Position numbers and translations under genes: made by a program. Under the pieces are notes generated by a model. The model was not told where the DNA came from and did not search any database. It saw only the letters and a list, made by a program, of their open reading frames with translations. A stretch of 64,000 nucleotides of DNA from Candidatus Methanoperedens sp. BLZ2 (GTDB taxonomy: Archaea; Halobacteriota; Methanosarcinia; Methanosarcinales; Methanoperedenaceae): positions 1-64,000 of the forward strand of contig NZ_NTMG01000085.1 in the NCBI RefSeq assembly GCF_002487355.1, in the 5' to 3' direction. Within the stretch, counting starts at the first letter, position 1; every line of letters begins with the position of its first letter. This document shows positions 16,881-49,287 of the stretch, one piece after another.

Positions 16881-16937
16881 GTCATGAAATCATGCTGACT
16901 AAAAAGGAGATTAAATGAAATGAAGGAGGCTAAAATT

Positions 16938-19775
16938 ATGAGAAAAGGAATTATATTAGGTATAGGAATTTTGATAATACTGCTGGCGCTGGCAGGAACT
17001 GGAAGCGCTAAATCTGGCTTTACAGCAGGAAACTGTAGCTATTGTCATGTAGATCTCAATATCGACTCCACACTAACAAGCCAGGGCAATAATTTTAAAG
17101 ATATTCATAAATTTAACGGTAATGCGGTGCCAACAAATGTTAGTAGTTGTTCCACATGTCATACAAATTTGGCTACAACATTTTTCCCGCTAACCTCGAA
17201 TGGTTCATCTTACAACAGCACTCATAGATTCAATAGTACCATGCTGGCTTCTAAATTGTTTGCAGCGCCAGCATGTGGTAACTGCCATGTGAATGCCAAT
17301 GGGAACAATTTCACTCTGCTAACAGGCACTCCAACATACCTGAATTCTTCGGTATGCGAAGACTGCCACAAAGCGAAGTACGATAACTGGACGAACACGA
17401 TGCACCGCGTCATGTTGACCAAGAACACTTCAGGTGCGGCGATGAACCTCAGTCTTCCTGACTTTGATGGGTTGAACTGGACTAATACGAACGTCTCATA
17501 TATGATAGTAGGTAAAACTTCTTTTAGATACCTTAATGCCACAGGATATTTATTCAGGAAATATAACGTTTTAACAGGGGAATTTACGCCTTATAACACA
17601 ACTGATCCGGAAAATAGACCCCAATACTCATGTGGAACCTGCCACACCACAGGCTATAATGCGACTGGCGGTAACGAGAGCAATTTATCCGGAATAATAG
17701 GAACATGGGAAGAAGAAGGAATTACATGCGAGAACTGTCATGGACCTGGCGGCAACGGCCATAATGTGACCGTTTACACCAAGGGCGAGGATTGTATAAG
17801 ATGCCATTATGGCGATACCAGACAGGGACCGGCAATGACAAACAAACATGCACTTGGCCCTGCTGAAGAATCCACTAACCCCAGCTGTACCCAGTGCCAT
17901 TCGCCGTATAACAGGTATATAGGAGCTCCGGCGTCAACTGGTGATGGTACAAATATAACATGCTCAGTATGCCACAATCCCCACAGTACGACTGATAGCC
18001 AGTACGGGCAGATATTAGCGAACAATAGTTTCAATGCCACCATAATGGCGAATCTGAAAGATGCGAAATTGAGCTTCTTTAACGGAACCGCGAGCAATGT
18101 CAGCAAGTTCAACAATACCAGCGTGTTCACAGGTACCAATGCTTCATTGGTGGCGGGAAATGATATATTTGATAACCTGAGCCTTATCACCGTATTATAC
18201 CCATTCCTTGGAAGCACGTCAAAAATCTATAATACCCAGGTAATAGATGACAGCTATGGTACTACAGGCATTGATCTGACAGGCCGTCCTGAATCTGAAG
18301 TCCTGTGCTCACAGTGTCACTACAGGCATGGATTGGAACATATACCTGGCTTAAACCTTAGCCATGGCAGGAATAATGTAACTAACGCTAACGAAACTGC
18401 AACATGCGTTGACTGCCACATGTCCAATGCAGGCGGAAAGAAGGATCATTCCTTTGATGCGCAGGAGGCAACGAACTATCCGCAGTACACATGTTCAAAG
18501 GGTACGAATTGCCATGTGACAAGCGCTGAGAACTTGAATTTAAGCAATATTTCAATAGTTCCTGTGGAAACCGAATGGGCTGCAAGCAGGCATAACAAAA
18601 CCCAATTTTACAAAAATGATTCCTACTTTGCAAACCAGACTGGCTTTAGCAGCAGCGGCGCCCCCAAGCGCAATAATAGCGAATGCATGAAATGCCATTC
18701 ACCATTTGAATGGAACCCTTCATATATAGTTAGAAACGTATCTGATTTCAGGGGTATAACATGCGCGATTTGTCATAATGTACACGATATGGGCGACTCG
18801 ATAAACGAATCAGGTCTGAAGTATAGCTGGTACAACAGGGATGCAAGCTATGCAAGCGGAAGATACAAAGCTAACTACACACTGATGGCAAATACCACAG
18901 AACTGTGCGGTAACTGCCATTCGAATGATAATCCCAGAATATACAGGGCAGGGCCTGGCTGGAACGGAACAGACGCTACCAGTACCAGCGCCACAGTTTA
19001 TCCAATTTCACCGCACGGCTGGCCAGCGAAGGATCTTTTCCTTACCTCTCCGAAGGAATCAGGTCAGGGCTTCGAATGTATTGATTGCCACATGTATGTC
19101 AACAAGACCAATGCCACAGGATTAGCGAGCGATACCGATAAGATAACGGGACATACCTTCAGAGTGAATGAAACCGGTCTTCAGAATACTTCAAGATGCA
19201 ACGGTTGTCATGACGGATTAAATCATGGCGGAACAATATATTCTACAATTCCAGACAGGATTGACACTGTACAAGCCGCTACCCAGGCGAAGTGGAATTC
19301 CGCTAACTCAACAGTTAGGGGTGCACTGGCAGAATATAAGAACTATACAGGCGTGAAGAACCTGAGCGCGGATAAGATCGCCAGGGCATACTGGAATCTC
19401 AAGCTTGTGGAATCAGACGACAGCTGGGGTGTACATAACCCCGATAAGGCGATTACACTGCTTGATGAAGCTGTAGCTTATGCGGATGCTTCAAATGCCT
19501 CTCTCGGGCAGGCATTAGTATCCACGGTCAACCTGACCGCAGGATGGAACCTGAAGGCTCTCCAGAATGCATCAGCGGTTACATCGCCGGTCTCGGTAAT
19601 GTCATCGGTGGCGAGCAATATAACCGTAGTCTGGGGTTATAACACCAGCAACCCGGCAGATCCATGGGAATTGTATGACCCTGCCATGCCCTCATCTCTT
19701 AACGATCTGACACAGATCGTTGCGGGAGAAGGGTACTGGATATATGCAATAAGAGACTGCGTGTGGACTGTATAA
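16938..19775 (+). CDS. Large multiheme c-type cytochrome (16 CXXCH + 1 CX5CH)
   Basis: 945 residues from ATG 16938, preferred over 16920 because AGGAGG lies at 16923-16928 and a signal peptide (IILGIGILIILLALAGTGSA) follows. I count 16 CXXCH motifs from CSYCH near the N-terminus to CNGCH about two thirds along, plus one CX5CH (CSKGTNCH). Many extra histidines (HKF, HRF, MHRV, HGW) could be distal heme ligands. The protein carries NXT/S sequons throughout, so it is exported. The last ~90 residues have no heme but a module with GWNLKAL, VVWGYN, WELYDP and GEGYWIYA, which I believe recurs at the ends of surface proteins in this group. There is no C-terminal anchor. It is probably an extracellular electron carrier working with the 1180-residue cytochrome downstream. 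Its exact type is not recognised. Confidence 0.93.
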   Translation: MRKGIILGIGILIILLALAGTGSAKSGFTAGNCSYCHVDLNIDSTLTSQGNNFKDIHKFNGNAVPTNVSSCSTCHTNLATTFFPLTSNGSSYNSTHRFNSTMLASKLFAAPACGNCHVNANGNNFTLLTGTPTYLNSSVCEDCHKAKYDNWTNTMHRVMLTKNTSGAAMNLSLPDFDGLNWTNTNVSYMIVGKTSFRYLNATGYLFRKYNVLTGEFTPYNTTDPENRPQYSCGTCHTTGYNATGGNESNLSGIIGTWEEEGITCENCHGPGGNGHNVTVYTKGEDCIRCHYGDTRQGPAMTNKHALGPAEESTNPSCTQCHSPYNRYIGAPASTGDGTNITCSVCHNPHSTTDSQYGQILANNSFNATIMANLKDAKLSFFNGTASNVSKFNNTSVFTGTNASLVAGNDIFDNLSLITVLYPFLGSTSKIYNTQVIDDSYGTTGIDLTGRPESEVLCSQCHYRHGLEHIPGLNLSHGRNNVTNANETATCVDCHMSNAGGKKDHSFDAQEATNYPQYTCSKGTNCHVTSAENLNLSNISIVPVETEWAASRHNKTQFYKNDSYFANQTGFSSSGAPKRNNSECMKCHSPFEWNPSYIVRNVSDFRGITCAICHNVHDMGDSINESGLKYSWYNRDASYASGRYKANYTLMANTTELCGNCHSNDNPRIYRAGPGWNGTDATSTSATVYPISPHGWPAKDLFLTSPKESGQGFECIDCHMYVNKTNATGLASDTDKITGHTFRVNETGLQNTSRCNGCHDGLNHGGTIYSTIPDRIDTVQAATQAKWNSANSTVRGALAEYKNYTGVKNLSADKIARAYWNLKLVESDDSWGVHNPDKAITLLDEAVAYADASNASLGQALVSTVNLTAGWNLKALQNASAVTSPVSVMSSVASNITVVWGYNTSNPADPWELYDPAMPSSLNDLTQIVAGEGYWIYAIRDCVWTV

Positions 19776-21035: not shown

Positions 21036-24000
21036 ATGAAAAAAATCCCTATCATACTGGCATTGTTGGCCTATCTTATATTCCTCAGCCCAGCAGGCAG
21101 TGCGCTTGAATGCATGGTATGCCACAGCTCTAATGCGAACGAATTCCCTTTAATTAACCTGTCTCTTTTTGGTGTTCATGCGGATGTCAATTCTACAGAT
21201 GGGGCAGGAAATATTACAAGTGGGGACTGCATAGCATGTCATTATTCGGCCAATACATTGGTTTTCCATAGTTTTCCAATATCCACATACAGCTGCGAGG
21301 ACTGCCACATTAATGGAACAGTTCCGGCTGCCCCCAGGGTTTCTAATCATAACAGGACAGGCAATGTGTCCGTGATAGCGTCATGCGCTGATTGCCATAA
21401 TAAGACCTCAAACCTTTTCAGATACAGCGCCAACGCAAGCGCAGCCCATTATGGAAGGAACGCAAGCTTCGGCCTGGCTCCTGGCGAGTCGTACTGTGCT
21501 TTTTGCCATCAGAATTCCTCAACTGTTTACAGTGATGTCATGCAAAACCAGGACAATAGTATGAGAGGAAACCACACATCCGGCATAATCAATTCCACCC
21601 ATCCCGCAGGGCGTCCCTATTGCACGACCTGCCACGGGACTGACAGGATACACGGCACAAACCTGACAAAGCCGGTTCCGAATTCAGGATTCTGCAATAA
21701 CTGTCATCAGAGCGACAGGCTGCAAAAGGACAGGCATGCAGGAAGTGTGGAATGCATACTGTGTCATGCAGATACGGATTCGGATATCCATAATATAAAA
21801 TATTTGCTTCCGGATGGAACATACCGCAGCGTGAACGCTACCGGCTGCGGGGATTGTCATGATTTCGGACTTCCAGCGCCTTACTTCAGGCTCCAGTTCC
21901 AGGCAGCGAACTGCACTACCTGCCACCTGGGGAACGGCCTGGTAAAATTTGCAGGCGCGCCGCGCTTTCCCTCGCCATTGATGCACAGTTCTAATCCTGC
22001 TTCCGGAGGATTGTGGAACGGCACACAGGCCGCTTACTGGGACAGCCAGGTTAACGCCTGCTATTATTGCCATGGGAAAACACTTCATGATACTAATGCG
22101 CCTGGAAATGTCTCGAATATCACTGCGGGAAACGCCCTGAACCAGAGCATTACAAATACAAGTTTCTGGTGCGCCAACTGCCATTACAATGGCAGTGACC
22201 CCTCTGGAAATTATTCCTATAATGCCACGTCCTATACTCCCATACCGCCTGAAATGCAGAACAAGTCCGGGCTTGTTCCTGCAACAGCAACAGATGGGAC
22301 TACTTTCTACAACCACTCGCTGGCTGAATATTCCGATCTTGCATGCAGGACGTGTCATGCACCAAATGCTCCTGCAACAAGTGCTTTATTCATTCACAAT
22401 GTTGGCGCAGGCGGAGGAGGGCCGGATTGCATCTCCTGCCATGATAGCAGAGGCGGAGGTGCGCCTGCTGATAAGAGAATAGATATCGTTTCATTTAATT
22501 TGAGCGTACATTATGGCATGAACGGAGGCGGGAACGGTGCCTGCTGGGCATGCCACGGCAACGGAACCCAGCCTCTGGGACATCCTCCGGAATATAAGTC
22601 ACCGAAGAAGTGCAGCAATGATACATGCCATTCCCTGGACCAGAAATTCCGCGCTCCCATGATATATTCACATTTCAGGAACGCAAGCCTGATTGACAAT
22701 CCCACGAACGCTTTTAATTCCAATGTCACAACCAATAATGACTGTCAGGGATGCCATGCAAACAGCGTAAATTCACAGGGCAGGAACATAAATTCAACAG
22801 TATCCCATTTTGCCTCGGGTGATCTCTTTGACAGTATAAATTGCATATACTGCCATCTTAATGAGGATAATTCCAAAGAGTGGGGGAACGCTACGTTGAT
22901 ATACGAGAACAGGACCGCACTTATAGAACTCAACAGGGAAAATAACAGATTCACCGCCAGGGAGGGGGAATATATAGACCTGGGTTTCGGTTTCATCCTC
23001 AAAGTAATTGAAGTCTCATCGGTCAGGAGCAGCGTGTTGATAGAACTTAGAAAAGAAAATCTAATTGTTGATAAGAGACTTATAGGAACTGGAAATTATA
23101 CATATGAGGAGTACCTCACTATCGATAATGGTAGTGTAAAAGTGCCTGCGATTGTAATTAATGTCACAGGCATTTTTAAAGGAAGTGATACTGGCTTTAT
23201 CCAGTATGAAGGTTTCAGGCTAAAAAGAGTCCATCCTGAGAAAAAAATCACGTCATGTTATTCATGCCATGTGAAAGCAATGCCAAAAGCAAAGTATAGA
23301 GTCATCGAAAGGGTCAGTGGTGAGAAAGATGAGATCTATTACACTAAGGAAACGGCCAATTTTACAGATAATAAAATATTCGATGAAAATGTTGTTCTTC
23401 AATTATTAGGAGTACTTACTGACGAAGACAAGCATGTGACCATACAGCCGGAAAAACGCAGGTCGCTGTATGAAGGACAAGTCTGGAATATCTCGGAAGG
23501 AACAAGCCTTGTAGTAAGAGGCGTGGATACAAAAAGCGAAGTTGTTATTCTCCAGCTGCGTACTGGCAATTATTTTTATGAGGATATCGTAAACAGGGGT
23601 GGTATATTTGAATTCAATCCGCAAATTAATTATCTTGGGAACCAGCCAAAAAATATCACGGTTTTCAGGGCAAGGGTGTCGGGAATAATCCAGGCAAGGC
23701 CGAAAAATATGGTAGTTATTGAGGATGTGGTTTCCCTGTCGCCTGATATCAGGAAAATAAATGCAAATCAGACGCTTGCTGGTTATAATACAAGCTGGCT
23801 GTGGGAAAATTCAACCATTAATGTCGGGAAAATACCTGACAATTTCCACTCTCCCCAGATCTATGACGGCGGAAACGGCGGGGGAAACTGTCTTTCCTGT
23901 CACGGGAGGGAGGGCTTTTCACAGAAAAAAGTATTCTCACTCGGAAAGCATGATACACTGAATGGCGGAGGGGACAATGCCTGCCGCGCATGTCATGGCG

Positions 24001-24578
24001 GGACTGCGGATATACAGGCACATCCGGCTGGTTACAAGAACCCCAGGAACTGCCTGAGCTGTCATGCGGCTACAAATAATAATTATAACGCCGTGTACAT
24101 AGGCGACGAGGAGCATAAGAACGAAAAATGTGAAACCTGTCATGTATCAAATATCCATGAAATTACAGGGCTGCACATGACGCCTTCGGTTAAAAAAACA
24201 GTAATTACAAAAGAAAATAACATGACCATATTGAGAGCATCGGTAACTGCGGGATATAAAATGAAAGTAAGAGATGCCAGGTATTACATTGATACACCGC
24301 TTAATAAATCACGGATGTCCCCGGCAGATGGGGTTTTTGATTCACAGGCAGAGGATGTATTTGCCCGGATGGATATATCAAAATTATCGCCAGGCAAACA
24401 TGTGGTGTATGTTGAAGCCATGGAGAGAAACAACAATTGGGGAGTTCCATCTTCAGTTGAGTTCATAATAGAGGGCGGGAGTTTGAAAGCCCCGGAGACG
24501 AAAAATACAAGTATGCTCACATTGGCAGACACGTTAGCTATATTAGTGGTCGTTTTTGTTTTGAGACGTTTTAGATAA
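21036..24578 (+). CDS. Multiheme cytochrome fused to S-layer-like modules (22 CXXCH + 1 CX4CH)
   Basis: 1180 residues. Signal peptide KIPIILALLAYLIFLSPAGSA ends right before the first CMVCH. Seventeen CXXCH motifs and one CX4CH (CSNDTCH) lie in residues 29 to about 615. Residues about 620-900 resemble two S-layer duplication-type modules (FTAREGEYIDLGFGFILKVIEV, LIELRKENLIVDKRL, then a second unit with LYEGQVWNISEGTSLVVRGV) with one CYSCH between them near 742. Four more CXXCH (CLSCH, CRACH, CLSCH, CETCH) follow at about 950-1035. An Ig-like segment (about 1045-1155) and a C-terminal hydrophobic helix with RRFR close it. Cytochrome/S-layer fusions are known from ANME-2 archaea, where they are proposed to carry electrons through the proteinaceous wall. 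The position and anchor here fit that. The S-layer assignment rests on pattern memory. Confidence 0.9.
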   Translation: MKKIPIILALLAYLIFLSPAGSALECMVCHSSNANEFPLINLSLFGVHADVNSTDGAGNITSGDCIACHYSANTLVFHSFPISTYSCEDCHINGTVPAAPRVSNHNRTGNVSVIASCADCHNKTSNLFRYSANASAAHYGRNASFGLAPGESYCAFCHQNSSTVYSDVMQNQDNSMRGNHTSGIINSTHPAGRPYCTTCHGTDRIHGTNLTKPVPNSGFCNNCHQSDRLQKDRHAGSVECILCHADTDSDIHNIKYLLPDGTYRSVNATGCGDCHDFGLPAPYFRLQFQAANCTTCHLGNGLVKFAGAPRFPSPLMHSSNPASGGLWNGTQAAYWDSQVNACYYCHGKTLHDTNAPGNVSNITAGNALNQSITNTSFWCANCHYNGSDPSGNYSYNATSYTPIPPEMQNKSGLVPATATDGTTFYNHSLAEYSDLACRTCHAPNAPATSALFIHNVGAGGGGPDCISCHDSRGGGAPADKRIDIVSFNLSVHYGMNGGGNGACWACHGNGTQPLGHPPEYKSPKKCSNDTCHSLDQKFRAPMIYSHFRNASLIDNPTNAFNSNVTTNNDCQGCHANSVNSQGRNINSTVSHFASGDLFDSINCIYCHLNEDNSKEWGNATLIYENRTALIELNRENNRFTAREGEYIDLGFGFILKVIEVSSVRSSVLIELRKENLIVDKRLIGTGNYTYEEYLTIDNGSVKVPAIVINVTGIFKGSDTGFIQYEGFRLKRVHPEKKITSCYSCHVKAMPKAKYRVIERVSGEKDEIYYTKETANFTDNKIFDENVVLQLLGVLTDEDKHVTIQPEKRRSLYEGQVWNISEGTSLVVRGVDTKSEVVILQLRTGNYFYEDIVNRGGIFEFNPQINYLGNQPKNITVFRARVSGIIQARPKNMVVIEDVVSLSPDIRKINANQTLAGYNTSWLWENSTINVGKIPDNFHSPQIYDGGNGGGNCLSCHGREGFSQKKVFSLGKHDTLNGGGDNACRACHGGTADIQAHPAGYKNPRNCLSCHAATNNNYNAVYIGDEEHKNEKCETCHVSNIHEITGLHMTPSVKKTVITKENNMTILRASVTAGYKMKVRDARYYIDTPLNKSRMSPADGVFDSQAEDVFARMDISKLSPGKHVVYVEAMERNNNWGVPSSVEFIIEGGSLKAPETKNTSMLTLADTLAILVVVFVLRRFR

Positions 24579-34211: not shown

Positions 34212-37200
34212 TCACTCTGCGCTTAGAACCTCATGTATGGTTCTCAATAATTTCTCAGCCGTGTAAGGCTTTGGTAAAAAAGCGTTCACTGTGCCTGCAG
34301 CTTTTGTTAGTTTGTCTTTCTCTGTTAATCCGCTTGCTGCAATAATCTTTAGCTGCGGATTGATTTTACGCAGTTCTTGAATGCTTGCCAGCCCGTCCAT
34401 AACCGGCATCATCATATCCATAAGAACAATTTTGATTTCTTCTCTGTTTTGCTCGTACAAAGCTATTGCCTCCAGCCCGTTATTGGCTGTGAGCACTCTG
34501 TATCCGTTTGTTTGTAATACTGAACTGGTGATATCACGGATCTGGGCTTCATCATCAACAATAAGAATCAATTCTCCAGATCCCCTGAAACGTTCATGCG
34601 CTGGCTCCTCCGCTTTCTGTGTTTCGGTCGTTGTAATTGCAGGCAAATGAACCTTGAATGTCGTTCCTTTTCCAGCTTCGCTATATACATTTATAAACCC
34701 GCCGTGACTTTTCACAATTCCAAGAGCGGTAGAAAGACCAAGACCTGTGCCTTTACCATTCTCTTTTGTTGTGAAAAACGGTTCGAACATCCTGTCCATT
34801 ATTTTAGGAGGAATACCGGCTCCGGTATCCGTGACAGCAATTACGATATAATGACCAACCCTGGCTTCAATATCAATATGAGTGTAGTCCTCATCAATGA
34901 AAATATTCCTGGCAGATATAGTCAGGATACCGCCGTCAGGCATAGCATCGCGGGCGTTCACGCACAGATTCATCAGGACCTGGTGTAGCTGTGTTGCATC
35001 TCCGGAGATTGTCCAGAGGTCTTTCTGTATATCGGTCATGATCTCAATCGATCTCGGAAATGTCTCTTGTGCTATCTGCCTTATTTCCGATATAAGATGC
35101 GCTGTTTGAAGAGGCATGCGTTCACCCTCTACACCTCGCGCAAATGACTGGACCTGCTTTATCAGGCTGGCTCCGCGTTTGGCGCTCCGGTCAAGAATAT
35201 CAATCAATTGCTGGCTTTTATTATCCGTGAATTTTTCCTTTAACAGTTCCAATGACAGCATTATCGGCGTCAGAACATTGTTGATGTCATGTGCTATACC
35301 TCCTGCAAGCGTGCCCACGCTCTCCATGCGCTGTGCCCGCAGGAACTGTTCTTCAAGCTTCTTTTTCTCAGTTATATCCGTATTTATGGCAAGTATTGAT
35401 TTTGGTTTTCCCTTATTATCATGCATCAGCGTCCAGCGGCTTTCGACAATGATTTCCCTGCCGTCTTTTGTTACATGGTACAGATCACCGTTCCACTCAC
35501 CCCTCTCAACTACGCTCTTTCGGGCTTCGATATGGCGGGATGAATCTTCTATATCTTTATACAGAAGCTCGCTGGCATTTTTGCCTATAGCTTCCTGTGC
35601 AGTCCAGCCGTACAGGCGTTGTGCGCTTTTATTCCAGTAAGTGATGCTGTCTTCTAAATTCCGGACTAAAATAGCATCCTGTGCCTTTTCAAGAAGAGCA
35701 GCCTGCTCCCGTACTTGCTCTTCGGATCTTTTGTGCTCGGTGATATCCATAAGAGACACTATACTCTTTTTTGTTCCAGGGATCATAGCGATGTTCAGGA
35801 AAATATCCTTTATACTGCCGTTCCTGTCAATTAACCGGATCTCGTATTTATTTGGAGCCAGCTTCGGGTCAACTCTCCGCTCACGGTGGTACTTTTTCAT
35901 CCTTTCCAGGTCTTCTTTTACAATAAATTCTGTCAAGCTTTTTTTACCTTCCACTTCCTCTCCGGGATAACCTGTGAGTTTTTCAAACTCTTCGTTCACC
36001 AGGGATATTTTAGTATCCTCTTCGATAATCGCCATCACTGTTCCGGTAGTCTCGAATACAGTCCTGTATCTGTCCTCTGACTCTCTTAGCGTATTTTCCA
36101 TACGCTTACGCTCAGTAATATCACGGGCTACAGATAATATGTAATTATTTTTTTCAAGAGAAATATAACTGATATTTACCTCTACAGGAAATATAGCGCC
36201 GTCTTTACGCCTCTGCTGACCTTCAAAAATCATATATCCTTTTTTCTTGACTTCTTGCACATGCTCTTTCCAGGAAGAATGATCTGGCAGGACGGTTGCA
36301 AAGTCAAAAACATGCATGTTAAGGAGTTCCTCGCGTTTATATCCCAGGCTGGTGCATGCTTTACCATTGGCATCCAGGATATGACCGGTTTCAGGGTCAG
36401 CAACAAATATAGCGTCGTTTGATCGATCAATCAGATTACGAAATAACCGTAGCTCCTCCTCAGCCCGCCTGCGCTCGGTTATGTCCTTCACAGTCCCTAC
36501 AAGTGCCACCCTGCTGCGAAAAGTACTAAGTCCAACATTTGCATTGATCAGTATCCTGGTTACTCCATCTTTATGCAGCACATGGAATTCATATTCTTTA
36601 GGTACGTCCTCTCCTGCCTGTCTTCGATAGTAGCGATCTGTGACCATTTTTGAATCTTCTGGCGCAACAAATTCCTGTAAATCCTTTCCAATAACTTCCT
36701 CCACAGTGTACCCGCCTATCCTGGCAAACGACTCATTTGCAAATTGGATTTTAGCATCCTGAATAATAAAGACGCCATCCTGGATATTATCAATTAACGT
36801 GCGATATTTTTCCTCAGATTGTTGTAGTGCTTCCTCAACCTGCTTATGCTCAGTGATATCCCTTCCGAAGCTAACAGTTCCAATGATTTTATCATTTTCA
36901 TATAAAGGGACGGTATTAACCGAAAGGATGAATATCTTGCCATCTTTGTTATATACCCTTACATCATAACTTTGTGGATTACCCTGGAGAGTTTTAAGGA
37001 ATATTTCATGTACTTTTGGTAAATCTTCCGGGAAAATCAGAGGGGCAAAGCTTTTACCGATCAATTCAGAAAGTTTGTATCCACTGGTTTCTTCACTCCG
37101 CATGTTAAAAAAAGTGAAGTTACCATCGTTATTTAATGTCCAGATGAGATCATGCGCAGTTTCGATGATTGTGCGGTAGCGTTCTTCGCTCTGGCGCAGC

Positions 37201-37823
37201 ACTTTTTGCTCGATGGTTATCAGTTTAGCCCTCAGTTGCATCTTCTGGAACCGTAATATCAGGGATCCGACCATTATCCCGGCTGCGATAATAACCAGGG
37301 TAGTATCTATACCAGCTTTCCTCTGTGCCTGATCCGCTCTTTCACTATAGATAGCGCTGGTATTGGTGATCATATCACTGAGCGCATTGAAACCCGGATC
37401 GACCCGCTCCTTATCAAGGATATCTGCTTTTTCAAGATCTCCCGCTGTTATCAACCTGAACATTTCATGCATATTGTTTTGGAATTCGAGCTGGGTTTTA
37501 TGAAGTTGCTGCAACCTCTCTTCGCCCGGATCAAGCAGCATTAATTCATCGAATGTTTGTGCTATCTGGCTCTCGACCTGCTGGACTTCTTCCAGTAATT
37601 CAGGACCAGGTCTCCTCTCGAATTGCCATTCCAGGGCGTCCAGATGGTATGATTGCCCTTTAAGGCGAGACAATAACAATTCTGCCTGGCGACTCTCATT
37701 AGCATACTGGTGGAGCATAGCAATAGTAGCAGCAGCTAACAATGCAACTGCTAATGCAAGAACAAGGATTGCCCACCCTGGAATTTGACTTTTGCTTTTC
37801 ATAATAGACATTAATGAACCCAC
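34212..37823 (-). CDS. Hybrid histidine kinase with five PAS domains and receiver
   Basis: 1203 residues. Two transmembrane helices (about 15-38 and 173-192) bracket an external helical sensor region. Five PAS/PAC units follow (about 208-830), each opening with an EERYRTI/EEKYRTL-like helix. The dimerisation/phosphoacceptor box is [22 protein letters not shown] (His at about 855). HATPase has [21 protein letters not shown] and [22 protein letters not shown]-terminal receiver (about 1083-1203) has VDDE, the acceptor Asp in [12 protein letters not shown], and the KP lysine in [11 protein letters not shown] 37823 is the longest start; ATGs at 37811 and 37802 are alternatives without clear ribosome sites. 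It phosphorelays an unknown signal. It lies antisense between rps7 and fusA, which is unusual and suggests insertion into the ribosomal cluster. Confidence 0.93.
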
Positions 37824-42101: not shown

Positions 42102-42139
42102 GAATGAACGTGCTTAATTGCGGACAGTCAGGGCTATCA

Positions 42140-42652
42140 ATGAGAATAATTAACTTTTTAAAAAACGATAATGCCCAGGTAAATATAGATTATATAGCAG
42201 GGATAGGAATATTTCTCCTGTCAGTTTTTTTTGTTTTCCAGTTCATTAATAGTATATTTACTCCCTTTCAATCAAGCTCCGATCAGGTTACGCTTGCTGC
42301 GGACAGGGCAGGAACCGTACTTGTCGAACGTATGCTTCATGCAGATAAATCAAGTGAATTAAATGTTATAGACCAGGGTAAATTATATTATTTAAATGAT
42401 ACGAGATTAAATTATTCAAACATGGCTAACTATAATGCCGCACTTCTGGAAATTGGTTTATCCAGCAGTGAATCTGCGTTTAATATGAATATGACAGTTG
42501 CAAACCTTACTGATCCGAACAGACCGATGAACCAGAGCGGCCCTGCTCTTCCAAAAGCAACTGATATCGGGCAAATTAAACGTATAGTATTGATCATAAA
42601 TTCCTCTACTGGTTATAATGAAGCAGCTATTCTTTCCGTGAGGGTGTGGTAA
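42140..42652 (+). CDS. Pilin-like membrane-anchored protein 1 of the six-gene set
   Basis: 170 residues from ATG 42140 (42104 is the longer option). The short polar start FLKNDNAQVNIDYIAG followed by one hydrophobic helix (IGIFLLSVFFVFQFI) looks like a type IV prepilin-type N-terminus. The rest is a small extracytoplasmic domain with several sequons. It resembles haloarchaeal DUF7287-type proteins by layout, from memory. First gene of six that overlap or nearly touch, so all are probably made as one complex. No biochemical role is known. Confidence 0.7.
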   Translation: MRIINFLKNDNAQVNIDYIAGIGIFLLSVFFVFQFINSIFTPFQSSSDQVTLAADRAGTVLVERMLHADKSSELNVIDQGKLYYLNDTRLNYSNMANYNAALLEIGLSSSESAFNMNMTVANLTDPNRPMNQSGPALPKATDIGQIKRIVLIINSSTGYNEAAILSVRVW

Positions 42653-42654
42653 TC

Positions 42655-43242
42655 GTGTTCGATGAAAAAGGCCAGATGCATACAATGGAAGGAGTGGCAG
42701 CAGCCACAATAATGCTTCTTGTTATCGTATATGCAATAGATGCTACTTCGATGACACCCCTTACTTCTTCAACAGCCAACGTGCATGTGGAAACCGAACT
42801 TCAGGTGCTCGGCCAGGATATTTTAGGGGCGCTTGATTATGCTGAACCCGGATATAATTCAAATCTAACGAATGATATACTGAGATGGAATGGCAAAGAA
42901 TACATCTGGGATGGAACAAATTATATGGAAAAGGGGAATGCTTCGTACTCTCAAAATAATCTTACAAATAATCTAACGAACAATCTTAAATATACCCTTA
43001 TAAAGCAGGGCATCGCGCATAGTGTGGAACTGACTTTTCTTAGAAACGATGGGACTTTTTTAGTAACCCAGAAAATGATTTACAATGGGAATCCTTCAGA
43101 CAATGCCGTGATAGTTTCAAGGAAAATCGCAATACATAACAGTGATAATCCAAATGCGACTAATATTCAATTAACGGATATCGATCCCTCAACCAACCTT
43201 TATAATATTGTGGATGTCAAACTTATTTTATGGAGGATGTGA
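42655..43242 (+). CDS. Pilin-like membrane-anchored protein 2
   Basis: 195 residues from GTG 42655, preferred over GTG 42646 because GAGGGTG is better spaced. N-terminus FDEKGQMHTMEGVAAATIMLLVIVYAIDATSMTP: a GQ-x-x-x-x-E-G junction before the hydrophobic helix. It closely matches the RGQAYTLEG pattern I remember from haloarchaeal DUF7288 proteins. The exported part is rich in Asn and ends in LYNIVDVKLILWRM. It overlaps gene 1 slightly at its possible start and gene 3 by one base (TGATG). Confidence 0.72.
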   Translation: MFDEKGQMHTMEGVAAATIMLLVIVYAIDATSMTPLTSSTANVHVETELQVLGQDILGALDYAEPGYNSNLTNDILRWNGKEYIWDGTNYMEKGNASYSQNNLTNNLTNNLKYTLIKQGIAHSVELTFLRNDGTFLVTQKMIYNGNPSDNAVIVSRKIAIHNSDNPNATNIQLTDIDPSTNLYNIVDVKLILWRM

Positions 43243-43997
43243 TGGGAATAATAGAAAACGAGCGCGCCCAGTTTATGCTTCTTGCGGGTTTTATCATTGC
43301 GATTGGTCTTGTTATTGCCACGGTTATGCTCAATAATATCATATTTGAGAGCAATATGGCCGGGGAAGCAGGAGGAGATCCCATAAAATATGATCTGGTG
43401 AACCTCATGCGTATAAGTGGGGATGAAATAAAAAGCGCATACAGGAATGTAACAGCACCAGGGCAAAATCCTGCTCTGAAGTTTAGCAATTTCACTAAAC
43501 AAATGCAAAATTTCAATGAAAACTTATCAATAATCTATGCGCTGCATGGCGAATGTGTGAACTTGAGCTGGGATATAAGCAACTGGAACACCACTCGCTA
43601 CGCGAATTTCACAGAGAACGGGACTGCAAATGGCGCAAGGAACTGGACTGTAATTGAAAATGTAAAAGATTCAAATATAACAGTGAATGTAACAACAATA
43701 TCTCCTCCTTTTAATATAAGTATTAATAGTTCAACAAAATCATGGCAAATAAACTTCACCGCTCCTCAAAATATTACTATTAATAGTGCTCAAATCATTG
43801 CAAATGTAAGCGTCACTCCATATACAATATCATTTATAAATGGCGCAAATGTATCTGGCAGATTCAATATCACAGGTAATACAAGCAATAATAAATCCTT
43901 TATTCGTGCTCGCGATTACATCTTGAACGCCACAATACTTTTTTCCACCAGCGATACACGCGCCAATATCACTATTCCTGTATCTGTACCGTGGTGA
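43242..43997 (+). CDS. Pilin-like membrane-anchored protein 3
   Basis: 251 residues from ATG 43242 with GGAGG at 43232-43236. N-terminus IIENERAQFMLLAGFIIAIGLVIATVMLNNIIFE: E-R-A-Q-F before the helix fits a class III signal/pilin-type junction. It is similar in layout to haloarchaeal DUF7261. The exported part has many sequons and beta-strand-like alternation. Belongs to the same overlapping set. Confidence 0.72.
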   Translation: MGIIENERAQFMLLAGFIIAIGLVIATVMLNNIIFESNMAGEAGGDPIKYDLVNLMRISGDEIKSAYRNVTAPGQNPALKFSNFTKQMQNFNENLSIIYALHGECVNLSWDISNWNTTRYANFTENGTANGARNWTVIENVKDSNITVNVTTISPPFNISINSSTKSWQINFTAPQNITINSAQIIANVSVTPYTISFINGANVSGRFNITGNTSNNKSFIRARDYILNATILFSTSDTRANITIPVSVPW

Positions 43998-44001
43998 TAA
44001 T

Positions 44002-44466
44002 ATGAAAATAAAGAAATTATTAACAAATGAGGATGCAGTATCCGTCACAATTGGCTTTATTCTTATGTTTTCAATTACAGTGCTGGTTTTTTCCGGGATC
44101 ATTCTTTCTTTTTATACACTCTTAGATCAATCCAGAGAAACAGCAATGAGGGCAAGTTTTGATATCCTGGGAAGCGGATTTGCAGCGAGGGTAACTTCCA
44201 TGGATACCCTGGCAAATATAACAGGATCATACGAGGGTACTGTAAACGAGCTCGAATACGATTTTTCAATTCCTGCATCCATTGCAGGTGAGAGCTATAG
44301 TATCAATGTAACCCGCGAAAAGATATTCCTGGATGCTGAAAATGATGCAAAGGCCTGGATACCATTTAATTCTTCAGATATTATAAATGAAGAGATATAC
44401 AGCAATGCCCAGGACTATACACTGTGGTACGATAACAACAATAATACTATTAAAATAAAACAATGA
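44002..44466 (+). CDS. Pilin-like membrane-anchored protein 4
   Basis: 154 residues. N-terminus LLTNEDAVSVTIGFILMFSITVLVFSGIILSFYTLLDQ: EDAVS-V-T-I-G-F is the typical archaeal pilin/flagellin N-domain form (compare AVSTTVG in haloarchaeal DUF7266). The small extracytoplasmic part follows. GGTGATA precedes the ATG. It overlaps gene 5 by ATGA. Confidence 0.74.
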   Translation: MKIKKLLTNEDAVSVTIGFILMFSITVLVFSGIILSFYTLLDQSRETAMRASFDILGSGFAARVTSMDTLANITGSYEGTVNELEYDFSIPASIAGESYSINVTREKIFLDAENDAKAWIPFNSSDIINEEIYSNAQDYTLWYDNNNNTIKIKQ

Positions 44467-45206
44467 ATAACATAAAATTTCTTTCCTCGGAAGATGCAGT
44501 CTCTGAAGTAGTTGACTTTGTGACAATCCTCGGTTTACTGGTGCTATCCATTGGGCTCATAGGAATGGCAGGATATCCGATCGTGAAAAATGCCCAGGAA
44601 GCAAACCATATAGAAAATACAAAACAGAGTTTTATTGTACTTGCAAATAACGTCAATAAAGTAGCGATGGGGCAGGCGCCTTCTCAGAATGTAGAGTTGA
44701 AAATGTACGGCGGGTCGCTAAGCGTTACGGGAAATAGTTCCATCAATATTACAGCAATAAACTCGACGAACCAAAACGTCACTCTGGTAGACAGGCAGAT
44801 GCGAAGTATTGAAAGTGTTGTGGGGGAAACTATCATCGCTTATGAAGGAACGGGTGTATGGGCCAGGTATCCCAACGGCAATACAATAATAGTTTCAAAA
44901 CCGCTCATTTCCAATCAGAGCAAAATGCTTGTTATTCCTGTTGTGGCAATAGGCGGTACTTCGTCTATAGGCGGCAGCGGTATGAGCAGGGTTACAGCTA
45001 AAGGTATACCAAATATAGATTTTTATAAAAATATGAGAAATATCAGTGTAAGGATAAATAGCACTTATTCAAATGGTTGGGAGAATTATTTCATTAATGT
45101 TAAGGGCTGGAGTCCCTGTGATCCGGATGAATGCACTGCAAAACTTGAAATGGAAAATATTGATGTGTATATAATAAATATCCAGCTGGATACGGAGGTA
45201 GAATGA
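44463..45206 (+). CDS. Pilin-like membrane-anchored protein 5
   Basis: 247 residues. N-terminus FLSSEDAVSEVVDFVTILGLLVLSIGLIGMAGYPIV, then KQSFIVLANNVNKVAMGQAPSQNVELKMYGGSL and VGETIIAYEGTGVWARYPNGN. The order of motifs matches gene 6 (VGDSPLQ, GGTL, YEGGGVWAQY), so the two are paralogs, both like haloarchaeal DUF7289. Overlaps gene 4 and gene 6 by ATGA-type junctions. Confidence 0.74.
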   Translation: MNNIKFLSSEDAVSEVVDFVTILGLLVLSIGLIGMAGYPIVKNAQEANHIENTKQSFIVLANNVNKVAMGQAPSQNVELKMYGGSLSVTGNSSINITAINSTNQNVTLVDRQMRSIESVVGETIIAYEGTGVWARYPNGNTIIVSKPLISNQSKMLVIPVVAIGGTSSIGGSGMSRVTAKGIPNIDFYKNMRNISVRINSTYSNGWENYFINVKGWSPCDPDECTAKLEMENIDVYIINIQLDTEVE

Positions 45207-46492
45207 AGCTTTTTAGTTCTGAAAGAGCGGAAGCAGAAGTTATAGGCCACGTAATTATCCTATCCATTACTATTCTTGGAATAAGCATGATAACCCTGTT
45301 CGGCGTACCTGCGATTTACAACTTAGAAGATATGGCAAATTCCAAGAATGTGGAACAGGCATTTACTGTCCTGGACTCTCGTGCGAGCAGGGTAACATTG
45401 GGTGATTCACCGCTTCAGATAACAAATTTTGAACTTGGAGGAGGCACACTGACAGTCGAGCCGAACAGCTCCAAGAATCCGGGTTATATTTTTGTAAATA
45501 GCAGTGATTTTAATTTCACAATTCCGATGGGAAAGATAAAATATACTCTTGGCGACAGGATAGTGTCTTATGAGGGCGGCGGTGTATGGGCGCAATATGC
45601 AGGAGGAGGCACAGTTATGCTTTCTCCTCCAGAATTCCATTATAATGGCTGGACATTAACACTTCCTGTAATTAATGTAAGCGGCAATGCGTCTGTCGCT
45701 GGAAAAGGAACTACTGTGGTTTCTATCAAGAAAATGGAAGCCATGATAAAGTATCCAAATGCAAGCGCAGGAAGGATGAATCCGGTAAATGGCACTAATA
45801 ATGGAATAGTAAATGTCAATATCACAAGCGATTATTATAAATCATGGGCTGATTATGCGAGAACCTTAAGTTATACAAATGTTTCAGTTAATGATAAGAA
45901 TAAGACAGCTATTATTGTTCTTGAAGTTTTATCGCCGATGGGGACTTTTTCCTTACCCGCAGGTCAGATCACAATCAGGAATATTAACACAAGCAATCCG
46001 ACCCCAATAAATAATTTTTCAGTTAATCTTTTCGATAGCCAGATGAATAAACTTAATAATCTGGATTGGGAGATTGAAGCAAGAAATGGTACTACAGAAC
46101 TGGAATTGGAAGTAGAAAAAGATGGGAATGATTTAATTATCAAAATCGAATTCGATTCACCCGGTGGGGAGGAAGAATGGGAAGGATGCCTGTTGTGCGG
46201 GGGAGTTAGTAATTGGCCAAACTCTATAAATGTTGATTTCCTTAATCAAAGCATGAATCTTACGACAGATGATACTTTAAATACGTGGCCGGGCTCAGGA
46301 AATAGTCGTAGTGTTTATGATATTTTCCAGCATTATCTCAGTTTGATGGGATCTGATGTCACTTTTAACACAGATGAAAACAAAAAAGTAGATTATTCAA
46401 AATCGCAGTTAACACTTGACTATGATCCCGGCCCTGGCGCTCTCACTTTCCTGCACGTCACGGAGAACAGGGCTGATGTGGGGATAAGTTAG
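45203..46492 (+). CDS. Pilin-like membrane-anchored protein 6 (largest)
   Basis: 429 residues. N-terminus FSSERAEAEVIGHVIILSITILGISMITLFGVPAI, then NVEQAFTVLDSRASRVTLGDSPLQ, GGGTLTVEPN, SYEGGGVWAQYAGGGTVMLSPPEFHYNG in pieces, and LTLPVINVSGNAS. This is a very close match to the DUF7289 pattern I know from haloarchaea. A C-terminal extension of about 200 residues (from about 240) has sequons, a CLLC motif and an acidic tract. Last of the set, convergent with rpl11. Confidence 0.76.
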   Translation: MKLFSSERAEAEVIGHVIILSITILGISMITLFGVPAIYNLEDMANSKNVEQAFTVLDSRASRVTLGDSPLQITNFELGGGTLTVEPNSSKNPGYIFVNSSDFNFTIPMGKIKYTLGDRIVSYEGGGVWAQYAGGGTVMLSPPEFHYNGWTLTLPVINVSGNASVAGKGTTVVSIKKMEAMIKYPNASAGRMNPVNGTNNGIVNVNITSDYYKSWADYARTLSYTNVSVNDKNKTAIIVLEVLSPMGTFSLPAGQITIRNINTSNPTPINNFSVNLFDSQMNKLNNLDWEIEARNGTTELELEVEKDGNDLIIKIEFDSPGGEEEWEGCLLCGGVSNWPNSINVDFLNQSMNLTTDDTLNTWPGSGNSRSVYDIFQHYLSLMGSDVTFNTDENKKVDYSKSQLTLDYDPGPGALTFLHVTENRADVGIS

Positions 46493-47936: not shown

Positions 47937-48296
47937 TTAAACATGTGCACCAATAATATCATCTAAAATTCTTGTATAATCTATTTTTTTTCCTCCACTT
48001 ATAATTATTGTATACAAGTCTTTAAAAGATATTGACTCGTGCGCTTCAAATTCATTAGAGGAGAAGGTTATACAATTATCCCCCGTTAGAAGACAATGCT
48101 CTATATCTCTTACGTCATTAAATTGTGGATAACAACTTAGAGCAATAACGCCATCTTCTCTCTTGAGAATTCCCCATACATATTTATTGTCGTATCTGAA
48201 AAAGTGTTCTCTTCCATGTATTAATATATCAGTTATTTTATGTTTATTTATAATCATGGATTTTATAGTTAATATATTTTTAATCATATTTCTCAC
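47937..48296 (-). CDS. Partial duplicate of the unknown protein at 48490-49287
   Basis: 119 residues. From about residue 18 (NKHKITDILIHGREHFFRYDN) it is colinear with the last ~100 residues of the neighbouring gene: WGILKREDGVIALS, CLLTGDNCITFSS, ESISFKDLY, ILDDIIG. The N-terminal ~17 residues are unrelated and the helical N-terminal domain of the parent is missing. It may be an expressed single-domain paralog or a dead copy. The C-terminal domain is not recognised. Confidence 0.5.
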   Translation of the reverse strand: MRNMIKNILTIKSMIINKHKITDILIHGREHFFRYDNKYVWGILKREDGVIALSCYPQFNDVRDIEHCLLTGDNCITFSSNEFEAHESISFKDLYTIIISGGKKIDYTRILDDIIGAHV

Positions 48297-48800
48297 TATG
48301 TACTGTATATTTTTCTTGTAATTTTTCTATTAGTCATATTTAACTCAGATGTTATAAAATTATTGCTGGCAGTATAACTACATGCTTATCTATATGTTTT
48401 GATAGGAGATTAGTTCGCATGTTTATTTTATTATTGTATATTTTATCAAGATTTTAAACTATTACTGATTATATATTTAAATTTTTAACCTAATTACTTA
48501 TAATATCATCTAAAATTTTTGTAGAATCCAATTCTTTTTTTTCTTCAACGATAAATTTATACAAGTCTTTAAAGGATATTAACTCACACTCTTCAAATTT
48601 ATCAGAGGAGAAGGTTATACAATTATTCCCCGTTAGAAGACAATGTTTTATATCTTTTACGTCATTAAATTGTCGATAATAACTTAGAGCAATAACGCCA
48701 TCTTCTCTCTTGAGAATTCCACATATATATTTGTTGTCATATTTAAAAAAATGTTCTCTTCCACGTATTAATATATCAGTTATTTTATGTTTATTCTGTT
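47955..48800. repeat. Tandem duplication of ~290 bp (47961-48250 and 48507-48796)
   Basis: Two direct copies about 546 bases apart. Long stretches are identical, for example GAGGAGAAGGTTATACAATTAT and AGCAATAACGCCATCTTCTCTC (each shown in part here); overall I judge them clearly above 80 % alike by eye. Both copies stay open in the same frame. Confidence 0.8.
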
Positions 48801-49287
48801 GATTTATGGGGTTATTGATTTGTTTTTCCAATTCCTTGAAATGCTTTATAATTCTATCAAGATAAATCTCATTTTTATTGGCAAATCCTATAAGAAGTTT
48901 TAATAATTCTTCATTATTTGTTTTGATATTTTCAAATTCCCTAATTGCATAATGAAAAAATACCTCTGGTTCTTTCTTTGCCGCTTCCTTTATATTTTCT
49001 TTAAATTTCTCAGAAAATTTCATATACAATCGTAAAGCAATTTCGGGTGATACGCCATTATCAATTACTATCTTTAGGAAAGTAGCCTTTTCGATTATAT
49101 TTATATTGTTAAAAATTTCTTTTTGATTTCTATCTATTTCCCGTAATTCATACCAACCATCGTGTTTTTCCCGTGTTATTTCATCGATAGTTTGGTCTAA
49201 TGCAGACCTGATGGGGTCTTTTTTTAATATCTTCTTAGCAACATCGTATAAAGCATTAGTAATTAATCCCTCAGATAATCCTATCAT
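48490..49287 (-). CDS. Hypothetical two-domain protein
   Basis: 265 residues. The first ~160 are charged and helical (ALYDVAKKILKKDPIRSALDQTIDEI, KATFLKIVIDNGVSPEIALRLYMKF, a long KNEIYLDRIIKHFKELEKQ helix). The last ~100 are a compact alpha/beta unit (KITDILIRGREHFFKYDN...ILKREDGVIALSYY...CLLTGNNCITFSS...). No catalytic motif and no signal peptide or membrane helix, so probably cytoplasmic. Low GC compared with its surroundings suggests acquired DNA. A role in defence or signalling is possible only by the look of the neighbourhood. Confidence 0.55.
   Translation of the reverse strand: MIGLSEGLITNALYDVAKKILKKDPIRSALDQTIDEITREKHDGWYELREIDRNQKEIFNNINIIEKATFLKIVIDNGVSPEIALRLYMKFSEKFKENIKEAAKKEPEVFFHYAIREFENIKTNNEELLKLLIGFANKNEIYLDRIIKHFKELEKQINNPINQQNKHKITDILIRGREHFFKYDNKYICGILKREDGVIALSYYRQFNDVKDIKHCLLTGNNCITFSSDKFEECELISFKDLYKFIVEEKKELDSTKILDDIISN

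Follow-up and report, generated by a model that had tools for sequence, protein, structure and literature searches.

A six-gene pilin set in Candidatus Methanoperedens sp. BLZ2, its likely motor in trans and adhesion domains grafted onto its orthologues

Six consecutive genes of Candidatus Methanoperedens sp. BLZ2 very probably constitute a pilin set, and their best explanation is that of the dedicated pilins of a euryarchaeal PilB4-type (clade 2) T4P, likely driven in trans by a motor locus on another contig (C33) and carrying several of its subunits at an adhesive tip. The genes are located in a window of 64,000 nucleotides (the whole stretch of DNA analysed, positions 1 to 64,000 of contig NZ_NTMG01000085.1). 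The families, their order, their linkage in relatives, co-occurrence with an ATPase, N-terminal features and domain grafts were all observed directly. An earlier note on this DNA had listed the six proteins as being of unknown function, which is overstated, as the pilin set of PilB4-type was described as part of a T4P already in 2016 (PMC4858521). The pilin set as such is known, whereas assigning a motor to it and finding grafted domains on its orthologues is new.

The six genes reported between positions 42140 and 46492 were all found as open reading frames (Table 1), with a second possible start for gene 1 at the ATG at 42104. They are mostly overlapping, as was stated before, with junctions of -7, -13, +4, -4 and -4 bases, corresponding to four overlaps and one 4-base gap. 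The families named in the earlier note for genes 2 to 6 were returned by Pfam in the same order, in case of gene 3 with a match too weak for the curated cut-off, its DUF7261 assignment being mainly based on gene order and an HMM built in this analysis. The family of gene 1 was missing from that note and was supplied by Pfam. A search of the six proteins against NCBIfam gave no model for any of them, and a literature search by name for five of the DUF families found no paper. Genes 5 and 6 are paralogues (HHalign E 1.5e-50), and gene 4 has the N-terminal helix alone in common with them. A common origin of all six heads is unsupported: the DUF7289 copies are the only clear paralogues, and the remaining heads display no mutual similarity at HHalign sensitivity.

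Table 1 Pilin-like genes of the six-gene set (positions of the window)
Gene	Assignment	Position	Strand	Length (aa)	Remarks
1	DUF7287 pilin-like	42140..42652	+	170	Pfam E 1.3e-30; leader KNDNA/QVNIDY; conserved order
2	DUF7288 pilin-like	42646..43242	+	198	GTG start; Pfam E 3.3e-44
3	DUF7261-like pilin-like	43230..43997	+	255	Pfam 1.3e-3, under curated cut-off
4	DUF7266 pilin-like	44002..44466	+	154	DUF7266 3.3e-13; Pilin_N 1.1e-4
5	DUF7289 pilin-like	44463..45206	+	247	Pfam E 1.7e-28
6	DUF7289 + DUF7308 pilin-like	45203..46492	+	429	DUF7289 6.6e-25; DUF7308 3.7e-12

In agreement with what had been read from the letters, each of the six proteins possesses exactly one hydrophobic segment, which is N-terminal and directly follows a short leader, and none carries the polar end region typical of ordinary signal peptides. 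The leaders are class III-like, with A or G as last and Q, V or E as next residue; in genes 1-3 the mature part begins with Q, preceded by A/G, and genes 4 and 5 as well as many relatives exhibit a PilA-like DAVSxxxx motif. All six thus combine the short hydrophilic leader (G/A end), the about 20 hydrophobic residues opening a helix and the single transmembrane segment of type IV pilins. AlphaFold2 models were obtained for gene 2 (pLDDT 84), with helices at residues 7-35 and 37-64 (one break) followed by an alpha/beta head, and for gene 6 (pLDDT 87), with a helix at residues 7-65 followed by a large head that is almost all beta. Both share a lollipop shape of an N-terminal helical stretch of about 58 residues and a beta-containing head, in line with the N-terminal helix of about 50 residues and beta-rich head of pilins. 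Foldseek searches of both models against the PDB gave no significant match to a solved pilin, a supporting rather than a defining feature since pilin heads vary widely, and profile comparison by sequence returned just weak pilin matches in the N-terminal part. Laminin-G/neurexin-like Foldseek matches of gene 6 were weak and not significant. The proposed sequon richness of the external domains applies to the six taken together (3.99 per 100 aa versus 2.02 in other window proteins) and, compared with shuffled sequences, to gene 3 (21 N-glycosylation sequons versus 5.8), gene 6 (15 versus 6.8) and gene 1 (6 versus 2.5). As a trait of all six it was rejected, as genes 2, 4 and 5 are not significant against composition.

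Of 60 relatives, 50 encode DUF7288, and across the phylum DUF7287 turned up in 279 out of 392 genomes; among 14 control genomes, both were matched in Haloferax volcanii only. The genera g18 and g19 are devoid of the pilin set. The order 7287-7288-7261-7266-7289(-7289) is kept in loci of Methanoperedens, Methanococcoides, Methanolobus, Methanohalophilus and Methanomethylovorans as well as in haloarchaeal loci. Gene order is thus conserved across Methanosarcinia and Halobacteria, as the claim of conservation between distant archaea had it, and because it recurs identically in dozens of genomes, the set is no product of chance. Moreover, in many haloarchaeal loci the pilin set directly follows an ATPase (775-1377 aa) and TadC (about 670-730 aa), with ATPase-TadC-DUF7287-7288-7261-7266-7289 forming a single gene run (e.g. 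L090, L092, L093, L104). Six unrelated single-pass surface proteins co-transcribed by chance would account for the dissimilarity of most heads in HHalign and for the missing significant fold match, but this is highly improbable in view of the phylum-wide order, the common class III-like N-termini and the ATPase-TadC adjacency. No part of a first broad alignment (A1) was sufficiently conserved to be used for scanning genomes. Besides the full set, a second, shorter pilin set adjoins it in Methanolobus and relatives (L107, L193, L194, L202, L204 and others), comprising DUF7287 (about 320 aa), DUF7288 (about 173 aa), DUF7261 (about 153 aa), DUF7266 (about 147 aa) and one DUF7289. In a distant genome, an ORF that looks transposase-like by eye (L121:10595-12214, plus strand) lies between DUF7287 and DUF7288.

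Within the window, no ATPase or membrane platform gene adjoins the set, which stands alone as stated earlier, and the Methanosarcinales loci examined likewise have no ATPase or TadC adjoining it. The earlier note had proposed to look for these genes elsewhere, and a contig-by-contig search of the BLZ2 genome returned four T4P-type ATPases, on contigs C33, C14 (archaellum), C29 and C28. The likely cognate locus is that of C33, which encodes a MinD (262 aa), an ATPase (795 aa) and a TadC (655 aa) and has no pilin ORF beside these three genes. It is likely the motor of the six-gene set, acting in trans, which would explain why ATPase and platform are absent beside the set. In a quick ATPase tree, the C33 enzyme groups with the haloarchaeal ATPases adjacent to pilin sets (SH-aLRT 93). 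A careful tree, from which long-branch clades were left out, places C33 opposite C29 and the haloarchaeal PilB3-type across a supported split (82/92), with its sister not fixed by the tree. The pilin-set-adjacent haloarchaeal ATPases are separate from the PilB3-type C29 in the ATPase trees, and the Pfam domain PilB3_C, which PilB3-type proteins match strongly, gives weak matches for C33 and the pilin-set ATPases. The C28 ATPase is part of a diverged ATPase/TadC-like pair (L029, 6143-10383, minus strand), in which the partner in TadC position has no Pfam match and the ATPase groups with one other only in the tree.

Co-occurrence was assessed in 110 genomes of the order, a C33-type ATPase being scored as present from a best match of 724 bits upwards, with the next class not exceeding 650 bits. 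Both this ATPase and DUF7288 occur in 76 genomes, neither in 29 and a single one in 5 (DUF7288 alone in 3, the ATPase alone in 2); the corresponding Fisher value of 7e-21 is uncorrected for phylogeny and overstates the evidence, as the absences mostly fall into two related genera and hence represent few evolutionary events. Exchange between motors and pilins does happen, since one near-complete genome in 2 contigs (G203) has the pilins without a C33-type ATPase and the set at L121 lies beside an ATPase of another clade. The latter case, the argument of Makarova et al. that motors and pilin sets exchange (PMC4858521), and the ability of Haloferax PilB3-C3 to complement loss of PilB1-C1 (PMC6491452) would also suit a tip complex common to several filaments, including PilA pili of the PilB3-type C29 motor. 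Such sharing is nevertheless unlikely, given that g18 and g19 are without the set while the g18 genome included in the trees retains C29-like ATPases only, and that the haloarchaeal adjacency concerns one ATPase clade.

A dedicated set with C33 as motor would correspond to the PilB4-type (clade 2, HVO_1160 locus), a T4P system with its own pilins which, according to Makarova, Koonin and Albers 2016 (PMC4858521), has a minor pilin family in common with the PilA system, duplicated and 250 to 550 aa in length. The pilins expected of this type are arCOG02911 and arCOG03926. By fit to this description, arCOG02911 is probably DUF7289. Shared features are the own pilin set, the duplicated minor pilin of variable length, the N-terminally extended ATPase, TadC and a separate MinD/FleN ATPase. 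Linkage of the pilins to an N-terminally extended ATPase and TadC is found in the haloarchaeal relatives, with C33 as candidate in trans in BLZ2. In contrast to PilB4 as described, the pilins are unlinked from ATPase/TadC here and in the examined Methanosarcinales loci; furthermore, the available part of that description does not mention grafts on several of these subunits, and the arCOG-to-DUF mapping is one we infer. An ATPase-TadC locus without adjoining pilins is also known from the Halobacterium pil-1 and Haloferax PilB3 pili, for which a function in adhesion was demonstrated (PMC4292770). Unlike C33, however, these are of PilB3 type and are paired with the C29 locus of BLZ2 by the trees and PilB3_C.

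Several orthologues carry non-pilin domains inserted into or appended to the pilin module. In one sister family, DUF7288 proteins reach 1511-1604 aa through an insert of about 1300 aa that splits the pilin domain in two and contains five FG-GAP repeats (matches of 5e-29 and 2e-30). DUF7261 is extended to 758 aa by a VWA domain (6.5e-11, DTSGS kept) in L113 and to 795 aa with an Ig-like domain in L116, and the 907-aa protein of L114 gives a sub-threshold Ig match. DUF7266 bears Big_7 Ig domains (4.9e-18) in the Methanoperedens-type loci L057 and L216 and PKD (4.8e-10) in the haloarchaeal L099. A Pfam search of the six window proteins gave no recognised grafted domain. Adhesion-type domains on three subunits suggest exposed positions and favour an adhesive, interchangeable minor-pilin tip; in bacterial precedents, such modules sit at pilus tips (PMC8179133, PMC12075869). 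The modular minor pilins PilB (vWA) and PilC (lectin) of Streptococcus sanguinis similarly bear an adhesion domain on a pilin module (PMC8179133), the archaeal VWA with its DTSGS motif paralleling the vWA of PilB, but here the pilin families are unrelated, the host is an archaeon, the grafts occur on three different subunits and no graft is recognised in the window copies. The Myxococcus Kil/TadEFG tips likewise comprise several minor pilins whose gene cluster can stand apart from the locus of the motor, with modular heads and proposed interchangeable tips (PMC12075869). They differ in having three instead of six subunits, and the likeness is one of gene organisation and modular build. A literature search for modular pilins and archaea found no study of archaeal modular pilins, which does not prove that none exists.

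The earlier proposal of one multi-subunit assembly, perhaps a minor-pilin tip, is well supported as to the assembly by gene order, N-termini, predicted folds, haloarchaeal ATPase/TadC adjacency and grafts, and the tip location may be deduced from these. The six proteins would be inserted by Sec and their leaders cut by an A24 prepilin peptidase, for which two loci are present in the BLZ2 genome, before the MinD-ATPase-TadC machinery of C33 would assemble them into an adhesive pilus. On balance, most of the six may well belong to a priming or tip complex, with heads that might touch surfaces or partner cells, although a short filament is possible instead. The bulk subunit could be the DUF7266 protein of gene 4 or the stand-alone PilA encoded on contig C16; proteins of about 600 aa with modular build in some loci make DUF7266 an awkward major subunit. 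Six distinct subunits, several of them large, without an obvious abundant major pilin also recall the pseudopilus of type II secretion, so that a short piston or another secretion or envelope device could be envisaged. This is rather improbable, as adhesion domains on orthologues suit surface display and the stand-alone PilA could supply the bulk subunit. Archaea of this kind are not known to have an outer membrane or a secretin, which likewise counts against a piston.

With an adhesive pilus as the preferred reading, six families of 'unknown function' become testable parts of one pilus, and an orphan pilin operon of an anaerobic methane-oxidising archaeon gains a likely motor. The grafts suggest that archaea, like bacteria, diversify pilus tips by adding adhesion domains to a fixed minor-pilin set. 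The six-pilin platform, conserved across Halobacteriota, might tentatively be regarded as an exchangeable tip and an archaeal parallel to the modular tips of bacteria. Individual lineages would have equipped it with adhesin or receptor domains (FG-GAP propeller, VWA, Ig, PKD), and in Methanoperedens it could mediate attachment to minerals or partner cells. This bears on the question how anaerobic methane-oxidising archaea attach to either.

Further features were noted in the window. Two adjoining ORFs on the minus strand (47937-48296 and 48490-49287) have a near-alike C-terminal region, HKITDILI.GREHFF.YDNKY..GILKREDGVIALS, and the longer one has no Pfam match. A hybrid histidine kinase of 1203 aa, in which about five PAS domains are combined with a receiver (34215-37823, minus strand), is encoded on the strand opposite to the adjoining translation genes. 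Finally, large multihaem cytochromes with MtrC/MtrF-like domains are encoded at 16920-19772 and 21036-24575, the second also with an S-layer domain, as expected for extracellular electron transfer by Methanoperedens.
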